NCBI RefSeq assembly: GCF_000517625.1
Contig: NZ_CP007057.1
Coordinates: 372,001 to 436,000, forward strand
Length of the DNA: 64,000 nucleotides
Direction of reading: 5' to 3'
From: Halostagnicola larsenii XH-48
Lineage (GTDB): Archaea > Halobacteriota > Halobacteria > Halobacteriales > Natrialbaceae
In this document: positions 5,134 to 45,691 of the stretch, piece after piece
Layout: every line of letters begins with the position of its first letter
How positions within the stretch are numbered: the stretch's first letter is position 1
Position numbers and translations under genes: made by a program
Notes under the pieces: model-generated
The model's input: the letters and a program-made list of their open reading frames with translations, nothing else
What the model was told of the DNA's origin: nothing
The model's database searches: none

Positions 5134-5147
5134 ACTGGCTGGCCAGT
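5134..5147. promoter_or_regulatory. Palindromic operator candidate upstream of tetR-MATE
   Basis: Perfect inverted repeat ACTGGC-TG-GCCAGT, 16 bases before the TetR start codon, where a bound dimer would block transcription initiation. This is the usual position for TetR autoregulation. The link to this TetR is inference. Confidence 0.5.
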
Positions 5148-5162
5148 TATCTCAGGAAACGA

Positions 5163-7249: not shown

Positions 7250-7388
7250 ACGGTCACTCCGAGAGACGCCCACTTTTCGGTAGAACACCCGATACTCCGG
7301 AGGGAGCTACCTCACCTTTAGCGGAACTCAAAGGCCTATCAATACCATACAATGGTTTCGAAAAGGGAAGTCCCGACCGAGTCAAATA

Positions 7389-7838: not shown

Positions 7839-8090
7839 ACTATTGCTTTTAGGTAATGTTATAAGAATATTTCCCCGAATGGAGAATTTCTATCACTTTC
7901 TCGTCGTGAATAGCGTTAGAGAGATTACGAGAGTGTCCCTCCGAAAACGATTCACTCGACAGTTCACCAAATAGTGTAGCGTCGATTCCGTTCTTACCGA
8001 CACGGGTTCGTGGTCAAGAGCTAGGTTCCCACAGAAGTGAAATTCTGCGGAACGCAAAACGCTTTAGGTATCGTCCGTGAATTACTCGCT

Positions 8091-9266
8091 ATGCGCGATC
8101 AGCAGCATATCGATACCTCTTGTGGGGTAACCAGTGACGACCGTTCACCTCGAGAAGGACCCATCAATGCGTCCAGTAGACGAGACGAAGCGAACGAACC
8201 GACGGCTGTTACAGATGGCGGACAGCAGAACCCGATCGAACACCGGCCACTGATCATCGCGGGGACAGGAATTGCTGGCCTGACGGCGGCGATCTACGCT
8301 GGTCGGGGCGACAACGACCCGCTGGTCATCGAGGGCGACGAACCCGGCGGCCAGTTGACGCTCACCACCGATGTCGCGAACTATCCGGGCTTCCCCGAGG
8401 GCATCGGCGGTCCCGAGCTGGTCAACAACATGAAAGCACAGGCCAAACAGTTCGGTGCCGAGCTCAAAAACGGCATCATCGCCGACGTCGACGCCTCGAG
8501 TCGCCCGTTCCGGGTGGAGTTGACCAACGGCGATGTATATACGGCAGACGCCGTGATCGCCGCGTCAGGAGCGAGCGCGCGTACGCTGGGGATCCCCGGC
8601 GAGGAAGAGTTGATGGGCTACGGCCTCTCGACGTGTGCGACCTGCGACGGCGCCTTTTTCCGCGGCGAAGACATGCTCGTCGTCGGCGGCGGCGACGCCG
8701 CCATGGAGGAAGCCTCCTTCCTCACCAAGTTCGCCGACACGGTCTACATCGCCCACCGGCGCGAGGAGTTCCGCGCCGAACAGTACTGGGTCGACCGCGT
8801 CCACGAGCAGGTCGACGACGGCGACATCGAGATCATGACGAACACCGAACTCCTCGAGATCCACGGCTCTCAAGAGGCGGGCGTCGACCACGTTACGCTC
8901 GTCCAGAACGACGCCGGCTACCCCTCCGAGAACCTCGAGGATCCCGACACCGAGCAGTTCGACTTCGACGTCGGCGCGGTCTTTTTCGCCATCGGCCACA
9001 CCCCCAACACCGACTACCTCGAGGGCACGGGCGTCGAACTCGACGCCGACGGCTACCTCAAAACTCAGGGCGGCGACGGCGCCGGCCAGACCGAAACCGC
9101 CGTCCCCGGCATCTTCGGCGCCGGCGACGTCGTCGACTACCACTACCAACAGGCCGTCACCGCCGCCGGCATGGGTAGCAAAGCCGCCCTCGACGCCGAC
9201 GAATACTTAGAAGACCTCGAGCGAACCACCGCCACCGGCGACCTCGAAGCCGCGGCTGACGACTGA
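8091..9266 (+). CDS. trxB: Thioredoxin reductase (NAD(P)H- and FAD-dependent, CATC active site)
   Basis: 391 residues from the ATG at 8091; a GTG at 8037 gives 409. I prefer 8091 because a TATA-like box (about 8059-8067) sits 25-30 bases upstream. The first ~55 residues are a poorly ordered, hydrophilic extension not found in ordinary thioredoxin reductases. The core then has an FAD motif (G-T-G-I-A-G), the redox-active C-A-T-C-D-G (cysteines 182 and 185), a second dinucleotide motif (G-G-G-D-A-A) and the C-terminal 'FGAGDVVDYHYQQAVTAAG' block that contacts FAD. It would transfer electrons from NAD(P)H to a thioredoxin or related disulfide protein. GC content rises sharply in the second half. 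No thioredoxin gene is adjacent. Confidence 0.92.
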   Translation: MRDQQHIDTSCGVTSDDRSPREGPINASSRRDEANEPTAVTDGGQQNPIEHRPLIIAGTGIAGLTAAIYAGRGDNDPLVIEGDEPGGQLTLTTDVANYPGFPEGIGGPELVNNMKAQAKQFGAELKNGIIADVDASSRPFRVELTNGDVYTADAVIAASGASARTLGIPGEEELMGYGLSTCATCDGAFFRGEDMLVVGGGDAAMEEASFLTKFADTVYIAHRREEFRAEQYWVDRVHEQVDDGDIEIMTNTELLEIHGSQEAGVDHVTLVQNDAGYPSENLEDPDTEQFDFDVGAVFFAIGHTPNTDYLEGTGVELDADGYLKTQGGDGAGQTETAVPGIFGAGDVVDYHYQQAVTAAGMGSKAALDADEYLEDLERTTATGDLEAAADD

Positions 9267-9980: not shown

Positions 9981-11012
9981 ATGAGAGCTGCACTTTTCCA
10001 CGGTATAGAAGACATGACAGTCGAAGATGTGGATGAACCAACGCCCGAAGCGGGTGAGATCCTGGTAGACGTCGCAGCGTGTGGGATCTGCGGGTCCGAT
10101 CTTCACTTCTACACGGAGGGGCTCCACGGAGACGCGGAGCTACCTGTTACGCTCGGCCACGAGGTCGGCGGAACAGTCATCCAGACCGGAGACGGTGTGG
10201 ATATCGAGGAGGGGACGGACGTTGTACTCAGCCCACACACTCCGTGTATGGAGTGTTGGTGCTGTAAAGACGGCCTATACAATCTCTGTACCAACCTGAA
10301 CGCGACCTCCGCAAAACCGGGCGGGTACGCGGAGAAAGTAGTCGAAAGCGCAGATAACGCGATTACACTTCCGGACGGCGTTTCTCCGGAGGATGCGGCG
10401 ATCGCCCAGCCAGTAAGCGTCGGCCTTCACGCCGTCCGCGAGTCGCCACTCGGGATCGGAGACAGTACGCTGGTGGTGGGCGCGGGACCGATCGGGTTGG
10501 GCGTCGTTCGATTTGCGAAGTCGACCGGAGCGGGGCCGATTTTCGTCTCGGAGCCCCAGGAATCCCGACAGGAGGTCGCGCTGGAACTCGGGGCCGACGT
10601 AGTGATCGATCCAACCGAGGAGGACCCAGTCGAGCGCGTCCACGAGGAGACCGGCACCGGTGTCGACGTCGCGTTCGAAGCCGTCGGTCATCAGGAGACG
10701 TTCAATCAGGCGATCGAATCGACGCGAGCCAACGGTCACACCACGGTGATCGGCGTATTCAGCGGTGAGGCTGAAATATCCCCACAAAGTCTCGTGAGTC
10801 ACCAGCGGTCGATTTCCGGATCGACGTCCCATCAGTTGGGGCCCCGAGTGACCAAGGAGTACAACGCAGTACTTCGCCAGCTCGAAAGCGGCGAACTCGA
10901 CGCCGATCGGTACGTCACCTCGCGGATCGGGCTCGAGGATGTCGTCGAGGACGGATTCGAAACCCTCCTCGAGGCGGACAACGAAGAACGTAAAATTCTC
11001 GTCTGCCCCTGA
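9981..11012 (+). CDS. Zinc-dependent alcohol dehydrogenase, MDR superfamily (ADH-1)
   Basis: 343 residues. Catalytic zinc ligands are Cys37 in 'ACGICGSD' and His60-Glu61 in 'GHEVGG'; the structural zinc lobe has cysteines 89, 92, 95 and 103 in 'CMECWCCKDGLYNLC'. The Rossmann motif 'VVGAGPIGLG' follows the middle of the protein, so NAD(P) is the cofactor. The overall pattern is nearest to threonine/sorbitol/butanediol dehydrogenases of the medium-chain family. ADH-2 at 26402-27442 is a clear paralog sharing the 'DVAFE(A/M)' and 'VTSRIGLED(V/I)V(E/D)DGFE' blocks. The long upstream region holds three palindromes also present upstream of ADH-2. Substrate probably a secondary alcohol or polyol; not determinable here. 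Confidence 0.93.
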   Translation: MRAALFHGIEDMTVEDVDEPTPEAGEILVDVAACGICGSDLHFYTEGLHGDAELPVTLGHEVGGTVIQTGDGVDIEEGTDVVLSPHTPCMECWCCKDGLYNLCTNLNATSAKPGGYAEKVVESADNAITLPDGVSPEDAAIAQPVSVGLHAVRESPLGIGDSTLVVGAGPIGLGVVRFAKSTGAGPIFVSEPQESRQEVALELGADVVIDPTEEDPVERVHEETGTGVDVAFEAVGHQETFNQAIESTRANGHTTVIGVFSGEAEISPQSLVSHQRSISGSTSHQLGPRVTKEYNAVLRQLESGELDADRYVTSRIGLEDVVEDGFETLLEADNEERKILVCP

Positions 11013-11420: not shown

Positions 11421-12503
11421 TTAGTCGTAAAATCCTTCAGTAGGCACCCACTCGCGTTCGACCGAATACTCCTCGAGCAGCGACTCCCATTCGTCCGGGA
11501 ACTCGATTTTCTTCGTAACCGGGCCGCCGATCGACGTCCCCGAGATGGCGTTGACGCGGCCAGGACCGCCGACGGCTACAATATTGATCGCGTCGGTGTC
11601 GGCGTACTGTCGGACCTGGAGCGGACCGACCTTCTCGTTCTCGAGAATCGAGCGAGAGTTGCCACCGGTCTTCTGGTAGGAGTTCTCGACCATGTACTCC
11701 TTGATCTCTTCTTTGCTGAGATCGCCTTTCTCCAACTCTTCTGCGTTGTACGGGTTGACGAAGTGGGTGATGGTTGCGTTCAGGTCCTCACCACTGCTGG
11801 CGCGCATCGACGACGGCGTGTTCTCGATCATCCCGCGAAGGACGTGTTCGGCGTCGTTCTCGTGGGGAAACCATTGCACCCAGCTGTTCGGTCCGGAAAT
11901 CGAGATCGTACTGTCGTCCTCGTCGAAGCCGTTCGTCACGTGGTAGGGTTCCCACGGACTGGTCTCTTCGTTCTCGCCCGCGAGAAAACTGAATTTGGCG
12001 GGATTACCCATCACGCCCATATCCTTCTCTCCGGGATAGATCTTCGCTGTGTTCCGATAGGCGATGCCGAGCGCCCGCGCTATGGTCTGGTTCGCGTGAA
12101 AACTCGGTCCGAACGCGCCGGACCCGCTCTCGATGTCGAGGGCGTCCCGGACGGGTCCGTTGACAAGCCACTGGTAGGACCAACTACCCGTACTGACGGA
12201 GAACTGTATGGAGTTCGAGTCCGGATCGGCGAGCGCTCGGACGCCGGCTTCTAATACCGGCATGTACGTCGGAAGACAGCCCGCCATCACCGCGTTCGAC
12301 GCCAACTGTTCTACGGTGAGAGCGTTCTCGTTGTTTCCGATTTCGCCGAGGACGTGATCGCGCGGATTGTCGGTTCCGCGCAGCATCTCCTCGACGCGTT
12401 CTTCCGTTGGCGGAATAACAGGGAGACCATCAGTCAGCCCTTGCTTGTACAGCGATTGGTTGATTTCCTCTAACGACTGCTCTTTCTGTGATTGGTTGGA
12501 CAT
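11421..12503 (-). CDS. UGSC-associated protein, paralog A (unknown function)
   Basis: 360 residues, no signal peptide or membrane segment. The N-terminus has 'GLTDGLPVIPPTEERVEEML', which I recognise from proteins encoded with, or fused to, UGSC-type (seleno)proteins in bacteria. A conserved cysteine lies in 'NAVMAGCLPTYMPV', followed by 'GNPAKFSFLAGENEE' and a C-terminal glycine-rich 'VGGPGRVNA'. Paralog B at 13186-14268 is very similar through the first two thirds, including identical runs around the cysteine. It starts 20 bases after the stop of the CGSC gene, so all three are probably one transcript. Enzymatic activity is unknown; association with redox or CoA-dependent catabolism is inference from context. 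Confidence 0.75.
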   Translation of the reverse strand: MSNQSQKEQSLEEINQSLYKQGLTDGLPVIPPTEERVEEMLRGTDNPRDHVLGEIGNNENALTVEQLASNAVMAGCLPTYMPVLEAGVRALADPDSNSIQFSVSTGSWSYQWLVNGPVRDALDIESGSGAFGPSFHANQTIARALGIAYRNTAKIYPGEKDMGVMGNPAKFSFLAGENEETSPWEPYHVTNGFDEDDSTISISGPNSWVQWFPHENDAEHVLRGMIENTPSSMRASSGEDLNATITHFVNPYNAEELEKGDLSKEEIKEYMVENSYQKTGGNSRSILENEKVGPLQVRQYADTDAINIVAVGGPGRVNAISGTSIGGPVTKKIEFPDEWESLLEEYSVEREWVPTEGFYD

Positions 12504-12523
12504 TGATGATTCGTGGTCGGGGA

Positions 12524-13093
12524 TTACTGCGGCGCTGGCTCCGCTCGTTCCTTGTCACTCAGTGGGTTCGTCAGTTCCTCGACGATGCCGTCGACGACTT
12601 CCTCGCTCACTTCCTCGCGGACACGCTCGAGATCCGTCGTCTCACATCGGACGGGCGTCTTCTTGTAGCGAAGGGGGCGGCCGCGCTCGACGGCGTTCGA
12701 CTGGTAGTCCAGTTCGAAGCCCTCGTCGATCAGTCCGACTCCCGGCGTCCCGGCATCCTCGATGAGTTCGATGCCCCACGCGAGAAACTTGGTGCAGGAA
12801 CCGCAGTCGCCGATCGCCCCGATAGCGGTGTCGACACCCTCGGCCCAGTCGACGACGCTCTCCTGTTCGTCGTCGTTCTTTATCTGGTTTAAGTGTTCGA
12901 CGTGATACCATTCGAACGTCGCATCGGGATAGCGCGCGGAGAGTTTTTCCTGAACGGCGGTCAACAGCGGTTCGGCCGCCGGCTTCCCGTTGTCGTACAG
13001 CCCGATATGTTTGCCCTCTACAGAGTCGACTCGGGGCACGAGCGGTTTCTGTTCGGTGTCGTTACCCGACGAAGAGGGTGTTACTAGACCCAT
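12524..13093 (-). CDS. UGSC-family protein, cysteine form (CGSC motif)
   Basis: 189 residues from the ATG at 13093. An in-frame start at 13156 exists, but an AT-rich TATA-like box (about 13117-13126) lies roughly 30 bases before 13093. The key motif is 'GAIGDCGSCTKF', with Cys97 and Cys100. In the UGSC family, first noticed in metagenomic selenoprotein surveys, the first residue is often selenocysteine; here it is an ordinary TGC codon (12805-12803), so no Sec machinery is needed. C-x2-C at the end of a strand suggests redox chemistry or disulfide/metal binding. A flavodoxin-like alpha/beta fold is plausible from 'KHIGLYDNGKP' and 'DTAIGAIGDCGSC'. It is sandwiched between two paralogous partner genes on the same strand. 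No function has been established as far as I know. Confidence 0.8.
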   Translation of the reverse strand: MGLVTPSSSGNDTEQKPLVPRVDSVEGKHIGLYDNGKPAAEPLLTAVQEKLSARYPDATFEWYHVEHLNQIKNDDEQESVVDWAEGVDTAIGAIGDCGSCTKFLAWGIELIEDAGTPGVGLIDEGFELDYQSNAVERGRPLRYKKTPVRCETTDLERVREEVSEEVVDGIVEELTNPLSDKERAEPAPQ

Positions 13094-13185
13094 ATGGGTG
13101 AGTAACACAAGCACGGAGTAAATAGTTTTTGGTGACAAATTAGTCGGATTTTGCAAAGGGATAGTGGCGGGGCAGGTAGATCAGT

Positions 13186-14268
13186 TTATTCTTCGGACGC
13201 ATATTCCGCGAGGAGTGTTTTCCAGTCGTCCGGGAACTCGAGCTTTTTCGTGACCGGCCCGCCAATCGACGGTCCGATAACCGCATTAAATCGACCAGGA
13301 TGGTCGACGCCCGCGATGACCTCGATGTATTCGGGGCCGCTAATCTGGGGCACCTGCCTACTCGTGACCGTATCGTGGTAGTCATCGAGGGCGTCGTCCC
13401 AGAGGACCCCCTTCTGGAATTCCTCGACGGGGATGTAGGAGTTCTCGGCGATGTACTCTTTGACCTCGCGTTTGCTGAGACCGGCAGCAGCGAGCGTCTC
13501 GAGGGACTCCGTACTGAGTACGTACGAAATCGTTTGATCGAAGTCGCCGCCCTGTTGTTCTCCGCCGACCATCGACGGCGGTGTGTTCTCGATCATGCCG
13601 CGAAGGACCTCTTCGGGGTCGTTCTCCGCTGGTTCCCACCGAATGAAGCTGTTCGGTCCGGAAAGCGAGATCGTACTCTCGGCCTCGTCAAACCCGTTCG
13701 TCACGTGGTAGGGCTTCCAGGGGCTGTCGCCCTCGTTCTCCCCCACGAGCAAATTGAACTTGAACGGATTACCCATCACGCCCATATCCTTCTCTCCGGG
13801 GTAGATCTTCGCGGTGTTCCGGTAGGCGATACCGAGCGCCCGTGCGATAAGTCGGTTCGCACGAGCGGTCGGTCCGAACGCGCCGGATTCACTTCCGATG
13901 TCGAGGGCGTCCCGGACGGATCCGTTGACGAGCCACTGGTACGCCCACCCACCAGTACTGACTGAGAACTGTATGGAGTTCGAGTCCGGATCGGCGAGCG
14001 CTCGGACGCCGGCTTCTAACACCGGCATGTACGTCGGAAGACAGCCCGCCATCACCGCGTTCGACGCCAACTGCTCTACGGTGATCGGATTGTCGTCATT
14101 ACCGAGCCGTCCGAGGATGTGATCGCGCGGGTTATCGGTTCCGCGCAACATTTCCTCGACACGCTCGTCCGTCGGTGGGATGACGGGCAACCCGTCCGTC
14201 AATCCTTGACGGTACAGTGAACGAGAGACGGTGCTAATGGAGTCTTCGCGAGGGTGATGGTGGGCCAT
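13186..14268 (-). CDS. UGSC-associated protein, paralog B (unknown function)
   Basis: 360 residues, same length as paralog A. Shared blocks include 'GLTDGLPVIPPTDERVEEML', 'SNAVMAGCLPTYMPVLEAG', 'YRNTAKIYPGEKDMGVMGNP' and 'SIGGPVTKK' near the C-terminus. The two copies diverge most between residues 225 and 310, where B has an insertion with more aromatic residues. It lies upstream of the CGSC gene on the same strand with a 92-base gap containing a possible promoter, and downstream of the aldehyde dehydrogenase. Two copies beside one CGSC protein suggest a heteromeric complex (inference). Function unknown. Confidence 0.75.
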   Translation of the reverse strand: MAHHHPREDSISTVSRSLYRQGLTDGLPVIPPTDERVEEMLRGTDNPRDHILGRLGNDDNPITVEQLASNAVMAGCLPTYMPVLEAGVRALADPDSNSIQFSVSTGGWAYQWLVNGSVRDALDIGSESGAFGPTARANRLIARALGIAYRNTAKIYPGEKDMGVMGNPFKFNLLVGENEGDSPWKPYHVTNGFDEAESTISLSGPNSFIRWEPAENDPEEVLRGMIENTPPSMVGGEQQGGDFDQTISYVLSTESLETLAAAGLSKREVKEYIAENSYIPVEEFQKGVLWDDALDDYHDTVTSRQVPQISGPEYIEVIAGVDHPGRFNAVIGPSIGGPVTKKLEFPDDWKTLLAEYASEE

Positions 14269-14431: not shown

Positions 14432-15949
14432 TCAGTGGAGGCCGTATTTGATGCTCTTGGTCTGCGTGTAGTGATCGAGCGTATCGACGGACAGTTCACG
14501 ACCGATTCCGGACTGTTTGTACCCGCCGTAGGGGAGACCGGGGGACATCTCGTGCCAGGTGTTGACCCAGATGTAGCCCGCCTCGATATCGTGGGCCGTT
14601 CGGTCGGCCTTTTCGATATCGTTCGTGATCACCCCGCCAGCGAGGCCGTAGTCAACGTCGTTGGCGAGGGTCATCATCTCGTCGTAATCCTCCCAGCGGA
14701 ACACCTCCAGGACCGGACCGAAGATTTCCTCTTGGACGGCCTCGTGCTCGTGGTCGAGCCCTTCGACGAGCGTCGGAGCGACGAAACACCCGTCTTCGAG
14801 CGCCTCGTCCTCCGGCGGCTCGCCACCCGCGAGGAACTCCGCACCACCTTCGCGAGCGCTTTCGAGGTAGTTCGTCGTCCGTTCGACCTGCTCGTGGGAG
14901 ACTTTCGGTCCGAGATCGGTCGCTTCGTCGAGCGGGTCGCCGACGGTCATTCCCTCCGCGGCTCCGATCAGACCCTCGAGGACATCGTCGGCGACGTCCT
15001 CGTGGACGAAGAGCCGCGATCCCGCTTCACAGCACTCGCCGGTGTTTGCGAAGATAGCGAAGGCGATGGTCTCGACCGCCGCCTGGGGATCCGCGTCTTC
15101 GTGAACGACGATCGGGCTCTTGCCGCCGAGCTCGAGCGTGACGTCGGTCACGTTGTCGGCAGCGTTGCGCATGATCTGTTTGCCAACGACGGTCGATCCG
15201 GTAAAGGCTATTTTTCGGACACCCTCGTGTTTAGAAAGCGGTGCTCCGGCTTCCTCGCCGTAGCCGGTTACGACGTTCACGACGCCATCGGGAACGACAT
15301 CGTCGACGAGTTCCATCAGTCGGAGCAACGAGAGCGGCGTCTGTTCGGCGGGTTTGATCACCGAACAGTTACCCGCCGCGAGCGCCGGTGCGAGTTTCCA
15401 CGACGCCATCGCCAGCGGGAAGTTCCACGGGATGATCTGCCCGACGACGCCGTAGGGCTCGTGGATCACTTTTCCGTGGTACCCGTCACCGTCTTCGGTC
15501 TGCCCGCGGTCGCTTTCGACCACGCCGGCGAAATATCGAAACTGCTCGGCCGTCGTGTTCATATCGATCCGCGCTTCCATCAGCGTTTTTCCGTTGTCGA
15601 GCGTCTCGAGCTTCGCGAGTTCTTCCGAGTGCGCTTCGACGCGGTCTGCGATCTCCAAGAGGACCGCCTGGCGCTCGCTCGTGGTCGTCTCTGACCACTC
15701 TCGTTCGTACGTATCCCACGCGGCCTCGATGGCGCGATCGACGTCTTCCGCCCGCCCCCGTGGGACCGAGGCGAGCACTTCGCCGGTCGTCGGATCGAGG
15801 GTGTCGAACGTCTCTCCGCTCGCAGCGTCCTGCCACTCACCGCCGATATACAGTTGTGTGTGATCGGAAACGACCTCTTCGGCTGCCGTTCGGTGCCGCG
15901 AGAGGATCGTTTCTTTCGACTGACTATCGCTATCGCTTGAACTAGCCAT
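14432..15949 (-). CDS. NAD(P)-dependent aldehyde dehydrogenase (ALDH-1)
   Basis: 505 residues from the ATG at 15949; an upstream GTG-type extension to 15976 is less likely. It is a full-length ALDH: 'IPWNFPLAMASWKLAPAL', 'KPAEQTPLS', 'ITFTGST'-like 'IAFTGSTVVGK', glutamate in 'LELGGKSP', catalytic cysteine in 'NTGECCEAGSRLF', and 'EIFGPVLEV' near the end. The first ~25 residues are a hydrophilic haloarchaeal extension. It oxidises an aldehyde to its acid; similarity is greatest to betaine-aldehyde/phenylacetaldehyde-type enzymes. It begins 132 bases from the divergent GMC oxidoreductase, so an alcohol oxidase/dehydrogenase and an ALDH share one promoter region. A TAGTA-T-TACTA palindrome (15981-15991) lies 32 bases before its ATG. 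Confidence 0.94.
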   Translation of the reverse strand: MASSSDSDSQSKETILSRHRTAAEEVVSDHTQLYIGGEWQDAASGETFDTLDPTTGEVLASVPRGRAEDVDRAIEAAWDTYEREWSETTTSERQAVLLEIADRVEAHSEELAKLETLDNGKTLMEARIDMNTTAEQFRYFAGVVESDRGQTEDGDGYHGKVIHEPYGVVGQIIPWNFPLAMASWKLAPALAAGNCSVIKPAEQTPLSLLRLMELVDDVVPDGVVNVVTGYGEEAGAPLSKHEGVRKIAFTGSTVVGKQIMRNAADNVTDVTLELGGKSPIVVHEDADPQAAVETIAFAIFANTGECCEAGSRLFVHEDVADDVLEGLIGAAEGMTVGDPLDEATDLGPKVSHEQVERTTNYLESAREGGAEFLAGGEPPEDEALEDGCFVAPTLVEGLDHEHEAVQEEIFGPVLEVFRWEDYDEMMTLANDVDYGLAGGVITNDIEKADRTAHDIEAGYIWVNTWHEMSPGLPYGGYKQSGIGRELSVDTLDHYTQTKSIKYGLH

Positions 15950-15980
15950 CGCAGTTCGCCTATTCAACCTACACAATCAA

Positions 15981-15991: not shown

Positions 15992-16051
15992 CTCGATAAC
16001 TGAATCCATACTGAATCGCATACGCAGTACTCTCTTTTGTGCAAAAATTCA

Positions 16052-16059
16052 TTACTAAT
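16052..16059 (+). promoter_or_regulatory. TTACTAAT element before GMC-1
   Basis: The 8-mer TTACTAAT lies 22 bases before the ATG. The same 8-mer occurs before GMC-2 and, inverted, before the fused HADH-ECH gene, with a 7-base match before ALDH-2. It may be part of the core promoter or an operator half-site. Confidence 0.35.
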
Positions 16060-16081
16060 AACTTCGTTAATTGATCTGTTC

Positions 16082-17608
16082 ATGGCGAACACATACGACT
16101 ACGTCATCGTTGGTGCCGGCTCCGCCGGTTGCGTGCTCGCGAACCGTCTCTCGGCCGACGAAGATACCGATGTACTACTACTCGAATCGGGAATACCCGA
16201 TGAGAAAGCGGAGATTCACAATCCGACGATGTTCCCTCACCTGATGCAATCCGAGGTGGACTGGGACTACTCGACAGTCCCGCAGGAGGGACTCAACGGT
16301 CGCAAAGAGTACTGGCCCCGCGGCAAGACGCTCGGGGGTACCTCGGCGATTAACGCGATGATGTACGTGCGAGGGAATCCGTGGGACTACGACCGCTGGG
16401 CCGAATTGGGCAACGACGGCTGGAGCTACGACGAGATACGTCCGTACTTCAAGCGGATCGAAGACTTCGAGGGCGGCGAATCCGAACACCACGGTGAAGG
16501 CGGTCCGCTCCGCGTCGAACAGGAGCATCCCTACGGTGAGGTCACGAACGCATTGATCGACGCTGCCGTCGAAGTCGGCTTCGACAGAAACGAAGACGTC
16601 AACGCCGGGCAACAGGAGGGAATGGGCCCGCTCCCCCTTACCGTCAAAGACGGCGAGCGACAGAGCACCGCGGTGGCGTACCTCCATCCGGTGTTGGACC
16701 GCGAGAATTTGACGGCCCAGACGGGAGCCCACGTAACCCGGATCGAGTTCGAAGGCGACACCGCTACGGGTGTCACGTACGTCCAGGACGGGTCCACATA
16801 TACCGTCGACGCAGCACAAGAGGTCGTCCTCTCTGCCGGAACGATCAATTCAGCGCAACTGCTCATGCTCTCGGGTGTCGGTCCGGCGGACCACCTCAAC
16901 GAGCACGGCATCGACGTTGAGATCAATCTCCCCGGGGTCGGTCGAAATCTCCAGGATCACTTGGTCGCTTCCTCGGCGTACGAGCTTCTGGGCGACCCCG
17001 AGATCGAACCGGGGGAAGTACTCTGTCAGGTCACCGGGTTCGAACGGACCAGCCCCGACCTTCTCGCTCCCGATCTTCAGTATTTCCTGGCTCGAGTGTA
17101 CTTTATGCGGCACGGATTCGACAACCCCGAGGAGGGCGCTGGGATGACGCCCAGCACCACGCTGCTTCACCCGGAAAGTCGCGGGCGGATCACCCTCGCG
17201 TCCGACGACCCGTTCGACGATCCGCTCATCGATCCAAACTACCTCGAGAAGGAAGCGGACCTAGAGAAACTCGTCGAAGGCCTCAAACGGACGCGCGAGA
17301 TCGGGCATGCGAGCGCGCTCGAGGAGTACCGCGGCGAGGAAGTGTGGCCAAAAGGCGAAGTCGAGAGCGACGAGGATCTACGCGAGCACATACGCGAGAC
17401 TGTCCAGACGATCTACCATCCCGTCGGAACGTGCAAGATGGGCGACGACGAGATGGCCGTTGTCGACGAGCGTCTTCGCGTCCACGGCCTGAACGGCCTC
17501 CGCGTCGCCGACGCCTCGATTATGCCGCAGATTACGACTGGGAATACGAACGCGCCGACGATTGCAATCGCTGAGAAAGCCTCCGATATGATCCGAGATC
17601 TCGAGTAA
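16082..17608 (+). CDS. GMC family oxidoreductase (choline dehydrogenase-like), GMC-1
   Basis: 508 residues from the ATG at 16082; 15 residues of upstream frame have no coding character. The N-terminal FAD motif is 'IVGAGSAGCVLANRL'; GMC signature 1 is 'GGTSAINAMMYVRG' and signature 2 is 'GTINSAQLLMLSGVG'. The active-site histidine is in 'IYHPVGTCKMG' and the partner asparagine in 'NTNAPTIAIAEKA'. Such flavoproteins oxidise alcohols to aldehydes with transfer of electrons to O2 or a quinone. Its paralog GMC-2 follows 250 bases downstream in the same orientation. With ALDH-1 divergent, the pair would convert an alcohol to an acid. Substrate (choline, long-chain alcohol, glycol or other) cannot be named. 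Confidence 0.92.
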   Translation: MANTYDYVIVGAGSAGCVLANRLSADEDTDVLLLESGIPDEKAEIHNPTMFPHLMQSEVDWDYSTVPQEGLNGRKEYWPRGKTLGGTSAINAMMYVRGNPWDYDRWAELGNDGWSYDEIRPYFKRIEDFEGGESEHHGEGGPLRVEQEHPYGEVTNALIDAAVEVGFDRNEDVNAGQQEGMGPLPLTVKDGERQSTAVAYLHPVLDRENLTAQTGAHVTRIEFEGDTATGVTYVQDGSTYTVDAAQEVVLSAGTINSAQLLMLSGVGPADHLNEHGIDVEINLPGVGRNLQDHLVASSAYELLGDPEIEPGEVLCQVTGFERTSPDLLAPDLQYFLARVYFMRHGFDNPEEGAGMTPSTTLLHPESRGRITLASDDPFDDPLIDPNYLEKEADLEKLVEGLKRTREIGHASALEEYRGEEVWPKGEVESDEDLREHIRETVQTIYHPVGTCKMGDDEMAVVDERLRVHGLNGLRVADASIMPQITTGNTNAPTIAIAEKASDMIRDLE

Positions 17609-17862: not shown

Positions 17863-19413
17863 ATGTCTGCCATGTACGACTACATCATAGTCGGCGGTGG
17901 GAGCGCTGGGTGCGTTCTCGGCCACCGTCTGACCGAGTCCGAAGACACCGACGTATTGCTGCTGGAAGCGGGCGAACCCGCGGAAGACAAGGATAAAGTG
18001 AAAGATCCGACTCGAGTCTGGGACGTCCTCGGATCTGAACTCGACTGGAAATTCGAGACGGAACCCCAGCCGGGGATGAACGGGCGAACCATCGACTGGC
18101 CGCGCGGAAAGGCCCTCGGCGGCTCGAGCGTCATCAACGGAATGGCGTACGTCCGCGGCCATCCCTACGACTACAACAATTGGGCCGACATGGGCAACGA
18201 GGGATGGAGTTACGACGATCTGCTCCCGTATTTCAAGAAATCCGAGTCGCTGAACGCCGACGGGGACGAAGCGTACCACGGAGACGACGGGCCGTTGAGC
18301 GTCTCTCGCGGTACCCCCGGCGAGTTCGCTACAACGCTCGTCGAAGCCGGGAACGAGGCCGGCCTGGACGTCAACATGGACTTCAACGGGGAACAGCAGG
18401 AAGGGATCGGCTACTATCATTCGACGATCAAAGACGGCCACCGACACAGCGCCGCCGCGGCCTTCATCAAGCCGGTTCTCGATCGCCCGAACCTGCACGT
18501 CGAGACGAGCGCGCACGTCACCGAACTCACGTTCGACGGTGATCGGGCGACGGGAGCGGTGTACGAACAAGATGGGACCGAGCACGAGGTTACGGTTGCC
18601 GACGGCGGCGAGGTCGTTCTCTCTGCCGGAGCGATCCAATCGCCGCAACTGCTCATGCTCTCGGGAATCGGTCCGGCCGACCATTTGGAGGAACACGGGA
18701 TCGACGTCAAACTCGACCTCCCCGGCGTCGGTCGCAACCTGCAGGACCACCTTCGCGTGCCGGTCGTCTACGAAAGCACAGAACCGGTCGGCTCGCCCCC
18801 GGAACCGATGGAGACGGAGGATGGAGACCAGCGTGGAACGCGGTACGATCGCGTCTTGGTCGGTGCGTTCGAGCGATCCGATCCCGACCTTCCCGCACCC
18901 GATCTTCAGTACGGATTGTCGCCGGGATCGGAGGAGGACCCTCAGGCCGGGTTCTCGATTATGACCATCCCGCTACGGCCAGTCGCTCGCGGGCGAGTTA
19001 CGCTTCGCTCGGACGATCCGTACGACGATCCCGTGCTCGATCCCAAGTACATGCTCGAGGAGAAGGACGTCGACGACTTCATCACCGGGATCCGTCGTGC
19101 ACGACGGATCGGAGAGACAGATGTTCTCTCTGAGTATCGAGAAAAAGAGATTAAACCCGGCGAGGACGTCCAGAGCGACGAGGGTATCGCCGAATACATT
19201 CGAAACAACGCCGTGTCGGGGTACCACCCGACCTGCACGTGCAAAATGGGCGACGACGAGACGGCCGTCGTCGACGACGACCTTCGAGTACGCGGTATCG
19301 ACGGCCTCCGAGTCGTCGACGCGTCGGTGATGCCCCAGATCCCGAGTGGGAACACGAACGCCCCCACCATCGCGCTCGTCGAGAAGGGCGCTGACCTCAT
19401 CAAGAACGAGTAG
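17863..19413 (+). CDS. GMC family oxidoreductase, GMC-2
   Basis: 516 residues. FAD motif 'IVGGGSAGCVLGHRL', GMC signatures 'GGSSVINGMAYVRG' and 'GAIQSPQLLMLSGIG', histidine in 'GYHPTCTCKMG' and asparagine in 'GNTNAPTIALVEKG'. It is clearly paralogous to GMC-1 over its whole length but has a longer acidic segment around residues 295-330 near the substrate cap. Both copies being kept suggests different alcohol substrates or successive oxidations. A palindromic sequence lies between the TATA-like region and the ATG. Confidence 0.92.
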   Translation: MSAMYDYIIVGGGSAGCVLGHRLTESEDTDVLLLEAGEPAEDKDKVKDPTRVWDVLGSELDWKFETEPQPGMNGRTIDWPRGKALGGSSVINGMAYVRGHPYDYNNWADMGNEGWSYDDLLPYFKKSESLNADGDEAYHGDDGPLSVSRGTPGEFATTLVEAGNEAGLDVNMDFNGEQQEGIGYYHSTIKDGHRHSAAAAFIKPVLDRPNLHVETSAHVTELTFDGDRATGAVYEQDGTEHEVTVADGGEVVLSAGAIQSPQLLMLSGIGPADHLEEHGIDVKLDLPGVGRNLQDHLRVPVVYESTEPVGSPPEPMETEDGDQRGTRYDRVLVGAFERSDPDLPAPDLQYGLSPGSEEDPQAGFSIMTIPLRPVARGRVTLRSDDPYDDPVLDPKYMLEEKDVDDFITGIRRARRIGETDVLSEYREKEIKPGEDVQSDEGIAEYIRNNAVSGYHPTCTCKMGDDETAVVDDDLRVRGIDGLRVVDASVMPQIPSGNTNAPTIALVEKGADLIKNE

Positions 19414-24816: not shown

Positions 24817-26262
24817 ATGTCAATCGAAATAAAGGAAACGTACGAGTTGTTCATCGATGGCGAGACGGTGGAGGCCTCGAGCGGCGACTACCTCACGACG
24901 GAAGATCCCGCAACGGAGGAGCCGATCGCGGAGTTCGCGGCGGGGACCGCCGACGACGTCGACGAGGCGGTCGCGGCCGCGAGGGGTTCGCTCGAGGAGT
25001 GGCAGGCAAAAAGACCCGGTGAACGGGGGGATATCGTGCAGCGAATCGCGGACGGCATCCGCGAGCACGCGGAGACGCTCACGGAAATCGAAACGCTCGA
25101 TCAGGGAAAGCCGTTGACGGCGTCCCGGGGTGCCGTCGAGGGGGCAGCCGGGTGCTTCGAGTATTACGCGGGTGCGGCGGACAAACTCGAGGGAAAGAGC
25201 ATCCCGGTCGGCGAGGATACCGTCGATTTCACGATGCGAGAGCCATACGGGGTAAGCGCCCAGATCATCCCGTGGAACGCCCCGCTCAATTTGAGCGCGC
25301 AGGGAACCGCACCGGCGCTCGTCGCGGGAAACGCGGTCGTTATCAAACCCGCACCGACGACGCCGCTTTCGTCTCTTCACCTCGCGGAGATCTGTAAGGA
25401 AGCGGGCGTCCCAGACGGCGTCATCAACGTCGTCACCGGGGCGACCGAGCCCGGGGCCGCGCTGTCCTCGCACGACGGCGTCGACACGATCTCGTTCACC
25501 GGAAGCGTCCCTACCGGACAGGCAGTGATGGAATCTGCAGCGAAGACCATCACCCCGGTCACGCTCGAGCTCGGGGGCAAGAATCCGGCTATCGTGCTGC
25601 CCGACGCCGATCTCGAGGAGGCGGTGAACGCGATCTCGATCGGAATCTTCAGCAACACGGGACAGATCTGTGCCGCCGCCGATCGAGCCATCGTCCACGA
25701 ATCGATCTACGACGAGTTCGTCGAGCGGATCGTCGAACGGGCCGAAGCCTACACGCTCGGACCGGGCATGGAAGATCCCGATATGGGTCCGCTCAACCAC
25801 GCCGAACACCACGAGAAGGTACTCGACTACATCGACATCGGTCTCGAGGAGGGCGCGACGCTCGAGACGGGCGGCAAAGCGCCTGAGGGGGACGGATACT
25901 TCGTCGAGCCGACGGTCTTCTCGGACGTCCGAAACGAAATGCAGATCGCCCAGGAGGAGATTTTCGGGCCGGTGCTGACGGTCATCCCGTTCTCGGATCG
26001 CGCGGAAGCCGTCGAGATCGCGAACGACATCGAACTCGGGCTGACCGGCGGGGTTTTCTCGAACGACATCAAGCAGGCGCTCCAGACGGCCCGCGAGATC
26101 GAAGCCGGATCGATATACGTGAACCAGTGGTTCGGCGGGTCGGCGGGAACGCCGTTCGGCGGAATGAAGAAAAGCGGAATCGGTCGAGAGATGGGACTCG
26201 AATCGCTCGATTCGTATCTCCAGACGAAAAACATCTGTATCGACGTGACGCTCGACGAGTAG
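24817..26262 (+). CDS. NAD(P)-dependent aldehyde dehydrogenase (ALDH-2)
   Basis: 481 residues. Motifs: 'IIPWNAPLNLSAQGTAPAL', 'KPAPTTPLS', 'ISFTGSVPTG', glutamate in 'LELGGKNP', catalytic cysteine in 'NTGQICAAADRAIV' and 'EIFGPVLTV'. It is the usual length without the N-terminal extension of ALDH-1 and only distantly similar to it. Closest types are aldehyde or succinate-semialdehyde dehydrogenases. The promoter region contains an inverted TACTAAT element (24744-24750) as seen before other genes of this block. It is the last plus-strand gene before the convergent ADH-2. Confidence 0.94.
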   Translation: MSIEIKETYELFIDGETVEASSGDYLTTEDPATEEPIAEFAAGTADDVDEAVAAARGSLEEWQAKRPGERGDIVQRIADGIREHAETLTEIETLDQGKPLTASRGAVEGAAGCFEYYAGAADKLEGKSIPVGEDTVDFTMREPYGVSAQIIPWNAPLNLSAQGTAPALVAGNAVVIKPAPTTPLSSLHLAEICKEAGVPDGVINVVTGATEPGAALSSHDGVDTISFTGSVPTGQAVMESAAKTITPVTLELGGKNPAIVLPDADLEEAVNAISIGIFSNTGQICAAADRAIVHESIYDEFVERIVERAEAYTLGPGMEDPDMGPLNHAEHHEKVLDYIDIGLEEGATLETGGKAPEGDGYFVEPTVFSDVRNEMQIAQEEIFGPVLTVIPFSDRAEAVEIANDIELGLTGGVFSNDIKQALQTAREIEAGSIYVNQWFGGSAGTPFGGMKKSGIGREMGLESLDSYLQTKNICIDVTLDE

Positions 26263-26401: not shown

Positions 26402-27442
26402 TCACGGCTGAACCAGAACCTTCACCTCTCCGCTATCGGCGTTGGCGAGCGCCTCGAATCCGTCGTCGACGATGTCCTCGAGACCGATCCGCGAGGTGAC
26501 GAGAGGTTCGTGATCTATCTCCCCGGTGGCGAATTTCTCGAGAACTGCACTGAAGTCTCGGTCCGCATGCGGCCCCGTCCGGTAGGCGGCGGAGGCGTTG
26601 ACAGAACGCTCGTTGTTGACGAGATCCATCGGATCGATCTCCACATCGTCTTCGAACACGCCGACGAGGGTGGTGTGCCCGCCCGGTTTGGTTGCGTTGA
26701 TGGCATCGTTGAGCGCCGATTCTCGACCGGCCATTTCGAACGCGACATCGACGCCGCCGTCCGTCTTTGACCTGATTTGCTCGATCGGATCCGTCTCCCT
26801 CGGATCGATCACAACGTCCGCGCCGCACTCAGCTGCTAGCTCTCGCCGTGCTTCCCGGTGGCCCGAGGCGAAAATGGGGCCTGCCCCGGCAGCCTTTACG
26901 AGCTGGACCAAGCCCAACCCGATGGGGCCAAGACCGATGACCGCGACGGAATGTCCGTCGCGGAGCGGGGACTGCATAACGGCGTGAAACGCCACCGTTA
27001 CCGGTTCTGACACTGCGGCTGCTTGCGGCGAAACACCATCTGGGAGGGGGACAACGTTGCTCGCTGGCGCGGTGACCCGCTCTGCGTAGGCGCCGGGTCG
27101 TTGAGCCCCGATGACCTGGAGGTCCCGACAGAGGTTATATTTGGATTCCTCGCAACACGAACACTCCTCGCAGGCGACGAGCGGATTCAATACGATTTCG
27201 GTCCCGATTTCGATATCGACATCGTCGCCGACCTCTACAACAGTCCCTCCAACCTCGTGGCCCATGATGTACGGCAGATAGTCATCGTCATCGTACCGAG
27301 GACCGTGAAGGTATTCCCCTAGATCGGACCCGCAAATACCACACGCTGCCACTTCGATGAGCACCTCCCCCGCATCGGGGGATGGTTCCGCCACCTCATC
27401 GACTCTAATATCCCGGTTTCCGTAGTACTGAGCTGCTTTCAT
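26402..27442 (-). CDS. Zinc-dependent alcohol dehydrogenase, MDR superfamily (ADH-2)
   Basis: 346 residues. Catalytic zinc ligands Cys37 ('ACGICGSD') and His62-Glu63 ('GHEVGG'), structural cysteines in 'CEECSCCEESKYNLC', and dinucleotide motif 'VIGLGPIGLG'. It is a full-length paralog of ADH-1 (identical blocks such as 'EVAACGICGSDL'-like start and 'TSRIGLEDIVDDGFE' end). Expression probably responds to the same signal as ADH-1, because the 610-base region before it carries the same palindrome types. It converges on ALDH-2, which would take the aldehyde product. Confidence 0.93.
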   Translation of the reverse strand: MKAAQYYGNRDIRVDEVAEPSPDAGEVLIEVAACGICGSDLGEYLHGPRYDDDDYLPYIMGHEVGGTVVEVGDDVDIEIGTEIVLNPLVACEECSCCEESKYNLCRDLQVIGAQRPGAYAERVTAPASNVVPLPDGVSPQAAAVSEPVTVAFHAVMQSPLRDGHSVAVIGLGPIGLGLVQLVKAAGAGPIFASGHREARRELAAECGADVVIDPRETDPIEQIRSKTDGGVDVAFEMAGRESALNDAINATKPGGHTTLVGVFEDDVEIDPMDLVNNERSVNASAAYRTGPHADRDFSAVLEKFATGEIDHEPLVTSRIGLEDIVDDGFEALANADSGEVKVLVQP

Positions 27443-28052: not shown

Positions 28053-28838
28053 CTACAGTAACCCAGTCCCAGTGTGAATGTTAATTTCAATGTTGTTCGC
28101 CGATCGAATGACCGCCTTGGAGAGTTCGTCCTCGAGTTGTTCTCCCCGCCAATTGTTGGCCGGCCCTGAGATGCTTATCGCACCGAGGACGCCTTCGTTC
28201 TTATCGATAATGGGCGCACCAATACCCTGGTTGCCGTATACGACTTCCTCGTTGTTGACGGCGTATCGCTGGTCGCGAATACGGTCGAGTTCCTCGTACA
28301 GCGCCTCCTCATCAGTTATCGTGTGCGAGGTGTACGTCGGCAACCCGTGTTGGTCGATGATTTGCTCGACTCTCGATTCCGGTAGATGAGCGAGTATCGC
28401 CTTGCCACCGGCCGTACAGTGGGTGTGGACCTGCGGTTCGTCTCTTTTTTTCGTATGGATTTCCTTCCCGATAGCGTCCTTTCCGAACGTCTCGTATAGG
28501 ATGAGCGTCTTCTTCTGATATTCGGTTATCAAGTGCGCGACGGCATCGTACTCGTGAGCTAATTTTTCGACCTCCATTTTCCCTGCTCGAAAGAGCTCCG
28601 TCTGGCCTCGTACCCGCTCACTGAACGGAATAAACTCCATCCCCAGTTTGTATTTTTCCCCCTCCTGTTGGACGAAGCCGTTCGCCTTCAGCGTCGCAAG
28701 ATGTGTGTGGACGGTCCCGGGCGAGAGTCCGATATCTTCGGAAATCTCAGAGATGCTGCTACAGCCGTTTTCATTGATCTGACGGAGTATCTGAAACGCT
28801 CGATCGACCGATTGGATCCGCCGCATTTCATTTGGCAT
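28053..28838 (-). CDS. IclR family transcriptional regulator (IclR-1)
   Basis: 261 residues from the ATG at 28838; 15 upstream in-frame codons are AT-rich promoter. The N-terminal winged helix-turn-helix lies at about residues 8-60 ('SVDRAFQILRQINENGCSSI', 'IGLSPGTVHTHLATLKANGF'), and the C-terminal GAF-like effector domain contains 'TAGGKAILAHLPESRVEQII' and 'GAISISGPANNW'. IclR proteins usually control catabolic genes in response to a small carbon compound. It stands between ADH-2 and the AOR gene. A 7-base inverted repeat overlaps its start codon, and a near match to the TTTGA palindrome lies 32 bases upstream, suggesting autoregulation and control of ADH-1, ADH-2 and the ABC importer (inference). 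Confidence 0.93.
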   Translation of the reverse strand: MPNEMRRIQSVDRAFQILRQINENGCSSISEISEDIGLSPGTVHTHLATLKANGFVQQEGEKYKLGMEFIPFSERVRGQTELFRAGKMEVEKLAHEYDAVAHLITEYQKKTLILYETFGKDAIGKEIHTKKRDEPQVHTHCTAGGKAILAHLPESRVEQIIDQHGLPTYTSHTITDEEALYEELDRIRDQRYAVNNEEVVYGNQGIGAPIIDKNEGVLGAISISGPANNWRGEQLEDELSKAVIRSANNIEINIHTGTGLL

Positions 28839-28856
28839 GGTTTGTAATACCAAATG
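28829..28856. promoter_or_regulatory. Inverted repeat CATTTGG-N14-CCAAATG over the iclR start codon
   Basis: Perfect 7-base arms at 28829-28835 and 28850-28856 enclosing the ATG of IclR-1. Suited to autorepression or to an mRNA hairpin covering the start. Confidence 0.45.
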
Positions 28857-28869
28857 TGGGCATATATTC

Positions 28870-28884
28870 TTTGCGAGGATCAAA
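28870..28884. promoter_or_regulatory. Near match to the TTTGA-N5-TCAAA palindrome upstream of iclR
   Basis: TTTGC-GAGGA-TCAAA differs by one base from the six perfect matches. It is 32 bases before the IclR-1 start, inside the expected promoter. Confidence 0.4.
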
Positions 28885-30753: not shown

Positions 30754-30776
30754 CCGTCACCCGAACAACGCGAACT

Positions 30777-31058: not shown

Positions 31059-31100
31059 GTAGACGATTCGGGCTGGAAATGGACCACTCCGCCACTGGCG

Positions 31101-32024
31101 CTACGAATTCGAGTCCGCCTCGATACGAGTCCTGGCCGATCTGACGGCAGTGACGCCGTCGCCAACCGCGGCGGCAACTTCGAGCGGACTTTCCGTTCGA
31201 ACGTCTCCCGCCGCGTAGATACCCTCGACAGACGTCTCCATGTTCGCGCCCACGATCACGCTCCCGTCGTCGTCGAGATCGACGGTGCCCTCGAGGAATG
31301 CGGTGTTCGGAACGGCACCGACGTTGACGTTCACGCCGCCGACTGGCACCGTCCGCTCGTCGTCGGTTTCGTGGTCGTGTACCCGTATCGCATCAACGAC
31401 GCCGTCTTCACCCTCTATCTCGGTGACCGTCGTCTCGGTGCGGATTTCGAGAGCCTGATTCGATCGAGCGTCCGCCGCGAGCGATTCGTCGGCAGTTAGT
31501 TGCGTTGCTTCTTCGATCAACAGGACCTCGGAGGCGTGGTCGGTCAAAAACAGCGCGTCGATGACGGCGTGGTTTCGACCGCCGACGACGGCGATCCGTT
31601 CCCCGGCGTAGAGCGGACCGTCGCAGGTCGCACAGTCGAATACGCCTCGTCCCCAGTAGTCCGTTTCTCCGGGGACGCCGAGTCGCTTCGGACTGCTTCC
31701 GGACGCGAGTACGACTGCCTTGGCGCTGAACTGATCGTGTTGGGTATGAAGTTCGTGTGGGGAACCGGGTTCGATGGCTTCGACGGCGCCCATCTCGACG
31801 TCTGGTTCGTAGGCCTCGGCCGTATTGACGAGTCGCGACCGAAATTCGGTTCCGGCGATCCCGTCCGGGAACCCCGGATAGGATCGAATTTCGTGCCGAT
31901 TCACGAGTTGTCCGCCGATCGATTCGTTCTCGAAGAACAGCGTGTCGTAGCCTCTTCGTCCCGCGTAGGCGCCTGCGCTGAGACCGGCGGGTCCGGTTCC
32001 AACGATCGCGATATCGTAAACCAT
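31101..32024 (-). CDS. Thioredoxin reductase-like NAD(P)H/FAD oxidoreductase
   Basis: 307 residues. FAD motif 'AIVGTGPAGLSAGAYAGRRG', redox-active C-A-T-C-D-G with cysteines 131 and 134, second nucleotide motif 'AVVGGRNHAVIDALFLTDHA' and 'IYAAGDVRTESPLEVAAAVG' at the end. The second motif has R-N-H where most reductases have G-D-S/A, so pyridine nucleotide preference may differ. It converges on the MoaD gene and is divergent from the hydrolase. It could reduce a disulfide partner in this locus, perhaps linked to the CGSC protein or AOR maturation, but that is speculation. Confidence 0.9.
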   Translation of the reverse strand: MVYDIAIVGTGPAGLSAGAYAGRRGYDTLFFENESIGGQLVNRHEIRSYPGFPDGIAGTEFRSRLVNTAEAYEPDVEMGAVEAIEPGSPHELHTQHDQFSAKAVVLASGSSPKRLGVPGETDYWGRGVFDCATCDGPLYAGERIAVVGGRNHAVIDALFLTDHASEVLLIEEATQLTADESLAADARSNQALEIRTETTVTEIEGEDGVVDAIRVHDHETDDERTVPVGGVNVNVGAVPNTAFLEGTVDLDDDGSVIVGANMETSVEGIYAAGDVRTESPLEVAAAVGDGVTAVRSARTRIEADSNS

Positions 32025-44711: not shown

Positions 44712-45691
44712 GCAAACTCCACTATTACCTTCGTCGCATCGTAGTGACGATTTTCCTGATATTCGGAGTTGCGTCGTTCCTGTTCCTCGCGTTCCGGCTT
44801 ATGCCGGGTGATTACGCGACGGTACTCGCCGGAGGTGGTGCATCAGCCGCGGAGTTAGAAGAGATTCGAGAGTCGTGGGGACTGAACCAACCACTATACG
44901 TACAATACTACGAATATATGACTAATCTGGTGACAGGGGACTTCGGGACATCTCACGTCTCAAGTGAACCGGTGTGGAACTACGTCAAGAACCCACTGAT
45001 GAACTCGCTTATACTTGTAATGCCGGCGATCCTCGTTGCATTCGTGGTGGGATCGGTCTACGGAGGATTACTGGGGACGAGGTCGGGAACTGCACTCGAA
45101 CGGTACGGTATCCTCCCCCCAACGGTCGCTGGAACGACTCCGAACTTCTTCGTCGGGATTTTGCTCCTTCTCGTGTTCTCGTCGACCCTCGGGTGGCTCC
45201 CCGTTAGTGGGATGGCTACAAGTGAAACGTATGCTGCGATCGAATCACATTACGAAATCTATCTCACAGGTGATTTTTGGAAGCACTACGTGCTCCCGTT
45301 CGCGACGATCGTTCTCACGTTCTTGTACTACCCGGCGCTGGTCATGCGAGGGAGCGTTATCGATGTGAAAGGACAGGAATACACGTACTTCCAGCGCATT
45401 GCAGGCTTACCGAGCAAAACCCGTTTCAAACACCTGATGAAACACTCATCACTCCCCGTGATTACGCTCCTCCCGGCTCAAACGGCGACCGCAATCAGTG
45501 GGCTTGTCCTCATTGAAACAGTCTTCAACTGGCCTGGCATTGGAACGCTCCTCTTCGAGTCAGTTCTCGCTCGAGATACGCCGACGATTCAGTTCCTCTT
45601 CATCCTTGTCGCAGTCTGGATAATCGTTGGGAATTTCCTCGTCGATATCTTCTATACAGTCATTGATCCACGGATTACGATTGAGGACTAG
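44708..45691 (+). CDS. ABC transporter permease, DppB-type
   Basis: 327 residues, six membrane segments, with 'VVTIFLIFGVASFLFLAFRL' at the start and the cytoplasmic loop 'YTYFQRIAGLPSKTRFKHLM' before 'LVLIETVFNWPGIG', all DppB/OppB-like. Its start overlaps the ATPase stop by four bases. Placing DppB last is unusual (the common order is B-C-D-F), so this operon is rearranged. Confidence 0.93.
   Translation: MSKLHYYLRRIVVTIFLIFGVASFLFLAFRLMPGDYATVLAGGGASAAELEEIRESWGLNQPLYVQYYEYMTNLVTGDFGTSHVSSEPVWNYVKNPLMNSLILVMPAILVAFVVGSVYGGLLGTRSGTALERYGILPPTVAGTTPNFFVGILLLLVFSSTLGWLPVSGMATSETYAAIESHYEIYLTGDFWKHYVLPFATIVLTFLYYPALVMRGSVIDVKGQEYTYFQRIAGLPSKTRFKHLMKHSSLPVITLLPAQTATAISGLVLIETVFNWPGIGTLLFESVLARDTPTIQFLFILVAVWIIVGNFLVDIFYTVIDPRITIED

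Follow-up and report, generated by a model that had tools for sequence, protein, structure and literature searches.

The partner-UGSC-partner locus of Halostagnicola larsenii

The window analysed here is a 64,000-bp stretch of Halostagnicola larsenii XH-48 (NZ_CP007057.1, positions 372,001 to 436,000), and our subject is a set of three minus-strand genes within it. Spanning 14268–11421, these genes encode, in transcript order, partner A (13186..14268, 360 aa), a UGSC-family protein in its CGSC form (12524..13093, 189 aa counted from an ATG; an alternative TTG start at 13156 would give 210 aa) and partner B (11421..12503, 360 aa). The gaps are just 92 bp between partner A and the UGSC gene and 20 bp between the UGSC gene and partner B, and the three genes are therefore likely to be co-transcribed. 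Over 359 residues, partners A and B share 65% identity (E 9e-170), which bears out an earlier, sequence-only reading of this DNA as a CGSC protein flanked on one strand by two paralogous partners. A search of the H. larsenii genome found no UGSC or partner copies beyond this set. We propose, with a probability of about 0.5, that the three genes specify one thiol-dependent reductive enzyme resembling GrdB of glycine reductase, which would be fed by a thioredoxin reductase (TrxB)-type flavoprotein and would operate within a catabolic gene cluster.

The sequence-only reading had placed the middle protein in the UGSC family, subject to a profile search, and that search was positive: PF24696 matches with 87.3 bits (cut-off 25) and E 1.7e-24 over positions 2–171 of 172. 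The NCBI equivalog NF041046 (UGSC_fam) scores 66 bits (E 3.5e-18), under its 125-bit cut-off, and the protein was for this reason filed under the Pfam family and not under the equivalog. The [U/C]-G-S-C motif is present as Cys97-Gly-Ser-Cys100, encoded by TGC GGT TCC TGC (12794..12805, minus strand); Cys97 occupies the selenocysteine (Sec) position of the bacterial forms, as had been read from its TGC codon. Alike in motif, length and full-length PF24696 match, the window protein differs from the known UGSC selenoproteins in having Cys for Sec, in falling below the NF041046 cut-off and in having two separate partner genes. Since 2008 UGSC has counted as one of the major selenoprotein families in metagenomes from ocean and fresh water, with no function assigned. 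The literature searched, which covered few subscription papers, contained it only in selenoprotein surveys and reviews, none giving a function, the same picture that the sequence-only reading had drawn.

UGSC is related to GrdB and PrdB over their active-site half

GrdB and PrdB genes were gathered from Clostridia, with in-frame TGA read as a residue, and compared with UGSC using hhalign. The UGSC profile matched GrdB at 97.8% probability in global mode and 96.6% in local mode (E 5.8e-10, for a single comparison), and the active-site half of PrdB at 83–92% (top 92.3%). A UGSC alignment led by the window protein matched GrdB at 96.2% with a score of 67.7, compared with at most 0.9% and a score of 20.0 for 60 column-shuffled GrdB alignments and 1.6% for reversed GrdB. 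When the motif columns were masked, the match to GrdB was still 84.9%. The motifs themselves read U-G-S-C-T in UGSC and U-G-T-C-T in GrdB. These profile comparisons make UGSC a homologue of GrdB and PrdB, which are the Sec subunits of glycine reductase and D-proline reductase, across the half of each protein that holds the active site. This relationship is the new piece of this analysis; no statement of a UGSC-GrdB link was found in the searched literature, with its coverage of few subscription papers. Together with the nearby TrxB-type flavoproteins, it was overlooked by the sequence-only reading, and we regard these two as the most informative clues to function.

The fold was predicted with AlphaFold2 on a natural UGSC-partner fusion (locus L035; L numbers denote the compared loci), which shares 42% identity with partner B in its partner domain; rows from plasmid records were excluded from the alignments. 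The model has a predicted local distance difference score (pLDDT) of 90.1 and a predicted template-modelling score (pTM) of 0.91. In its UGSC part, residues 37–184 form beta-alpha-beta-alpha repeats, a predicted doubly wound beta/alpha domain, and the motif (residues 106–109) opens a helix that follows a strand. Structures listed as neighbours are of the Rossmann/flavodoxin-like type, headed by 8s7v_H, one chain of a methyl-coenzyme M reductase activation complex (Z 11.4; next 10.4). A 2008 survey of Global Ocean Sampling (GOS) data guessed a thioredoxin-like fold for UGSC (PMC2398784). The present model looks unlike such a fold, and its beta-alpha repeats stand beside the GrdB/PrdB profile homology; the absence of thioredoxin-like folds from the neighbour list by itself excludes nothing.

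GrdB systems (PF07355, including the betaine and sarcosine relatives) have in common with UGSC a homologous UxxC domain, a separate larger partner subunit and, in part of the loci, nearby thioredoxin reductase genes. They differ in that the roughly 220 residues preceding the shared half of GrdB are absent from the 189-aa UGSC protein (the global match begins at GrdB column 218), in that the UGSC partners are not GrdE-like, and in that PF09338 (GrdE) is absent from the host of the window and from the seven other haloarchaeal genomes searched. The haloarchaeal host is moreover aerobic. PrdB likewise is a short Sec/Cys subunit, with the motif UGTC, that works with a larger proprotein subunit; that subunit, the GrdE-like, pyruvoyl PrdA, is unrelated to the UGSC partners by any comparison made. 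Because GrdE is absent, the partner is unrelated to it and the GrdB N-terminal region is missing, the UGSC set is judged from its sequences not to be a glycine or proline reductase. A GrdB-type nucleophile may nonetheless be reused on another leaving group, as in FarB/FarE of Cloacibacillus, a proposed fluoroacetate reductive dehalogenase in which FarB, a GrdB relative, would cleave the C-F bond (PMC10838667). FarB and FarE are true GrdB and GrdE relatives, whereas UGSC and its partners represent a separate branch. A PrdB-like open reading frame in a Dehalococcoidales genome (L125, 1429–2673) reads UPGC instead of UGTC and is extended by a long C-terminal region; the genome additionally carries a Sec-containing UGSC-partner fusion.

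UGSC and its partner form a unit

UGSC was found by profile search in 15 of 292 haloarchaeal genomes, and a separate search with the partner profile returned exactly the same 15, a coincidence with a chance of ~2e-25 if kinship is ignored. The partner profile was also used to scan GTDB genomes, yielding at least 80 loci from many bacterial phyla; these 80 loci, with the haloarchaeal and plasmid loci, make up the 104 partner loci and 116 UGSC domains to which the following counts refer. UGSC is present in 94 of the partner loci. For 114–115 of the UGSC domains a same-strand partner lies no more than 1.5 kb away. Two domains were classed as distant: one is an additional domain in a locus where an adjacent pair is present as well, and the other shares the strand of its partner but lies beyond 1.5 kb. 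About 20 natural fusions, always UGSC followed by partner, are among the loci listed. The GOS survey describes UGSC fused to a conserved domain called 'Unknown_1' (PMC2398784), which is plausibly the partner family. Most loci make do with a single partner. The co-occurrence whose lack would have refuted the sequence-only reading is thus perfect among the haloarchaeal genomes, and its suggestion that two large subunits and a small redox protein make a heteromeric enzyme gains from co-occurrence, adjacency and fusion as far as the functional unit is concerned; the heteromer itself would be a further step. A Chloroflexi metagenome-assembled genome (JACPQD01; L044, L047, L055) shows a strong expansion of paralogues: about ten of its genes are UGSC-partner fusions, and each of them has TGA in frame at the motif.

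The partner family gave no meaningful Pfam or NCBIfam match with A, B or the remaining rows of an 11-row alignment, and it merits a Pfam entry of its own. In partner B, Gly26, Pro28, Gly116, Glu177 and Trp184 are conserved, and Cys76, Arg143 and His188 are near-invariant. Partner B alone was modelled with confidence (pLDDT 91.0, pTM 0.90), and its best structural match (Z 5.8) is not convincing. Sequence searches found no solved-structure relatives of either partner or UGSC, and no relative on the viral contigs searched; profile comparisons of UGSC with partner, and of partner with GrdB, were below 1%. Two identities for the partner were considered, and neither was upheld. A GrdE/PrdA-like pyruvoyl proprotein is contradicted by the hhalign comparison with GrdE (0.1%), and Cys76 is an unlikely pyruvoyl precursor because L035 has Ala at this position. 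A fumarase or hydro-lyase is hinted at by Foldseek only, where class I fumarase gives the top but weak matches (E 2.9e-4, TM 0.26); VIA Z values were below 6 with fumarase unlisted, and the profile comparison gave 0.1%.

Thioredoxin reductase-type genes are candidate electron donors

Of 16 haloarchaeal loci, 8 have a TrxB homologue no more than 5 kb from UGSC, compared with ~0.8% per locus expected from a background density of 47 in 58 Mb. The TrxB-like proteins adjoining UGSC in L025–L030 and L033 retain a CxxCD motif. Two candidate donors are present in the window. One is a thioredoxin reductase-type flavoprotein with the motif CATCD (8037..9266, plus strand; TIGR01292 327 bits, below the 343 cut-off), 4.3 kb from UGSC, with an orthologue in Halosolutus (L114). 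The second, a TrxB-like Pyr_redox_2 flavoprotein with the motif CATCDGPLY (31101..32024, minus strand), is the orthologue of the kind that adjoins UGSC in L025–L030 and L033 (phmmer 403 bits to the L028 protein). Among bacteria, Arthrobacter has the order trxB-trxA-partner-UGSC, and in Roseovarius and Variovorax the UGSC-partner pair has trxB next to it or close by. In glycine reductase, electrons pass from NADPH through thioredoxin reductase and thioredoxin to GrdA and then GrdB (PMC3091704). The second TrxB-like gene stands between genes for an AFOR-type aldehyde oxidoreductase and a CocE/NonD-type (S15) hydrolase (29077–33863), and a CocE/NonD hydrolase gene is also found upstream of the Arthrobacter set (L121).

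The same genes could be read as a thiol peroxidase or detoxification system, in which UGSC and a TrxB-type flavoprotein clear peroxide or reactive aldehyde produced by GMC oxidoreductases and aldehyde dehydrogenases, with the partners as scaffolds. The TrxB-like proteins near UGSC also resemble AhpF, GMC enzymes adjoin the set, and an entry in the reference list of PMC3091704 (B55) has a title on peroxidase activity of GrdB. Such a system would leave unexplained why UGSC co-occurs perfectly with a large partner bearing strongly conserved polar residues, why that partner was repeatedly duplicated, and why some genomes have many UGSC-partner paralogues standing beside varied enzymes. We consider a peroxidase quite unlikely.

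Selenocysteine and cysteine forms

In-frame TGA encodes the first residue of the motif in 89 of the 116 UGSC domains, and six bacterial genomes with TGA-containing UGSC genes (G444–G449) have a tRNA-Sec of 66–76 bits. All haloarchaeal copies examined have Cys at this position. The best tRNA-Sec match in the genome of the window reached 41 bits, under the 47-bit cut-off, and none of the haloarchaeal genomes searched had one above it. The haloarchaeal Cys form offers a practical way in to the study of UGSC, since no selenocysteine insertion is required.

A few UGSC-partner fusions have lost the first Cys/Sec, as in L038 (AGSC) and L112 (MGSC), or the last Cys, as in L106 (CGSG); a damaged motif is also found in L119, on a Vibrio europaeus plasmid. 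In L119 and in L116 (Sporomusa plasmid) aconitase X and DUF126 genes adjoin the fused gene. Damaged motifs and neighbours together suggest a sub-branch that has lost redox chemistry. Losses of this kind could be accommodated if UGSC were a non-redox enzyme, a lyase, racemase or hydrolase in which Cys97 serves with the partner as a covalent nucleophile and the Cys pair is not cycled. The predicted doubly wound beta/alpha domain has a shape common in hydrolases and racemases, and the fumarase matches of the partner, though they falter in profile and structural comparison (0.1%, Z below 6), point the same way. Against this, the first Cys/Sec and the last Cys are kept in more than 90% of aligned UGSC rows, Sec is costly and yet usual in bacterial UGSC, and half of the haloarchaeal loci have a TrxB gene nearby; a non-redox enzyme accordingly seems rather unlikely.

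A proposed reductive enzyme

The observations on UGSC, partners and TrxB lead us to prefer the thiol-dependent, GrdB-like reductase, and we infer for it a physical complex, a substrate pocket in the partners, a reductive direction and an electron path as follows. The CGSC protein would bear the nucleophilic redox centre, Cys97, with Cys100 as the resolving residue. The partners would hold the substrate pocket, and the diverged A and B probably make the enzyme heteromeric. By analogy with GrdB, Cys97 may attack a carbon atom of the substrate that carries a leaving group, or reduce an activated bond, and the adduct would be resolved by Cys100 to give a disulfide. An NAD(P)H-fed TrxB-type flavoprotein, the product of 8037–9266, of 31101–32024 or of both, would re-reduce the disulfide directly or via thioredoxin. 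The enzyme would work within a cluster that breaks down an imported organic compound, handling it as alcohol, aldehyde, acid and CoA ester. The sequence-only reading had envisaged oxidation or activation of an unusual carbon substrate; this may hold for the cluster, but UGSC itself is better matched by a reductive role.

Several points weigh against this proposal. The detected homology between UGSC and GrdB covers the active-site half only, and the pyruvoyl chemistry of glycine and proline reductase is not common to the UGSC set, because the partner-GrdE comparison is at 0.1% and the host is without GrdE. The P-values for co-occurrence and TrxB proximity ignore shared ancestry. In the window, a zinc alcohol dehydrogenase gene (ADH1) stands between the 8037–9266 TrxB gene and the UGSC set, and the TrxB gene is on the opposite strand. 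TrxB is near UGSC in only 1 (L036) of the bacterial loci among the 80 listed from the GTDB scan, and the link in bacteria holds for a minority. The redox pair would seem dispensable in the AGSC, MGSC and CGSG fusions, which have lost the first Cys/Sec or the last Cys. The searched literature contains no activity for any UGSC protein.

On a broader and more tentative view, to which we give somewhat less than even odds, UGSC and its partner may constitute a third branch of glycine/proline-reductase-type chemistry that is oxygen-tolerant, pyruvoyl-free, fed by thioredoxin reductase and equipped with its own substrate subunit; it would be found across many bacterial phyla, mostly as a selenoenzyme, and would have been taken up repeatedly by haloarchaea with Cys and partner duplication. 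The tie to GrdB/PrdB, the obligate and unmodelled partner and the TrxB-type reductases together turn a family of 'function unknown' into a testable reductase.

Distribution and origin

The UGSC-partner unit is mostly bacterial and not archaeal in nature. The layout had been framed in the sequence-only reading as one undescribed in archaea, and in view of the GTDB loci and the partner tree this framing needs changing. In that tree the window clade adjoins bacterial Sec fusions and other haloarchaeal partners form a separate group (support 100/99), a split that indicates more than one acquisition of the system by haloarchaea. Partners A and B fall into two clades, each shared across haloarchaeal families. 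The partner-UGSC-partner layout also occurs in haloarchaeal L021–L023, with duplicates of their own, and in bacterial L058; in L028 and L030, which belong to the window clade, the second partner lies a few kb off. The sandwich thus appears to have arisen more than once, and a functional reason for two partners is therefore favoured. Haloarchaeal UGSC loci are located on large plasmids in several species, including Halosolutus, Haloterrigena (pHTUR01) and Halalkalicoccus (L114, L115, L122 and others), which fits horizontal spread. Clostridia were rejected as the home of UGSC: only 1 of 148 genomes contains it, and it is hence not a typical enzyme of Stickland fermenters.

The catabolic cluster

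Conservation of the surroundings was assessed with the window genes as queries and with the neighbours of other loci as reverse queries. Several haloarchaeal families share a set that comprises the partners, UGSC, two zinc alcohol dehydrogenases, two aldehyde dehydrogenases, two GMC oxidoreductases, an IclR regulator, a short-chain dehydrogenase, a PaaK-like ligase, an SBP_bac_5 binding protein and a TrxB-like protein; in the window it is spread over ~8–46 kb. The catabolic setting that the sequence-only reading drew from the neighbouring genes is thus supported, since GMC, alcohol and aldehyde dehydrogenase neighbours are found again around UGSC in other haloarchaeal families. ADH1 (9981..11012, plus strand; ADH_zinc_N) is conserved beside the UGSC set, with orthologues in L026, L027, L028, L030, L031 and L114. 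On the other side lie aldehyde dehydrogenase 1 (14432..15976, minus; betaine-aldehyde-dehydrogenase-like, below equivalog cut-offs; orthologue in L026), GMC oxidoreductase 1 (16037..17608, plus; L026, L028, L030) and GMC oxidoreductase 2 (17863..19413, plus; L026, L027, L028, L030, L031, L114). Farther along are aldehyde dehydrogenase 2 (24817..26262, plus; Aldedh; L026, L027, L028, L030), zinc alcohol dehydrogenase 2 (26402..27442, minus; L027, L030), the IclR-type regulator (28053..28883, minus; PF01614/PF09339; L026, L027, L028, L030), the short-chain dehydrogenase (35881..36792, minus; PF00106; L026, L030), a phenylacetate-CoA-ligase-like AMP-binding protein (36946..38277, minus; PF14535, PF00501; L026, L027, L028, L030) and an oligopeptide-type ATP-binding cassette importer identified by Pfam (SBP_bac_5, two permeases, two ATPases; 39707..45691, plus), the binding protein of which recurs in L026 and L027. 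The GMC and aldehyde dehydrogenase proteins resemble choline and betaine-aldehyde dehydrogenases only below curated cut-offs, and for this reason no substrate is named.

The abundance of oxidoreductases here, including the AFOR-type protein, could also mean that UGSC and its partners serve a neighbouring AFOR-type, GMC or aldehyde dehydrogenase enzyme as chaperone, as sulfur carrier or in repair, an accessory role with which the highly varied bacterial neighbours would agree. No one client family recurs beside UGSC across phyla, and the commonest bacterial neighbour, the TctC receptor (24 of 123 genes scanned), points to substrate uptake instead; we find such a role very unlikely. As a sign of organic-acid substrates, the TctC neighbours are weak evidence, because such receptors are common in Burkholderiales.

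Next to the cluster, at 3713–7838, the window contains genes for an FAD monooxygenase, a TetR regulator, a MATE-like transporter and UspA proteins, and UspA recurs near UGSC in L026, L028, L030, L032 and L033.

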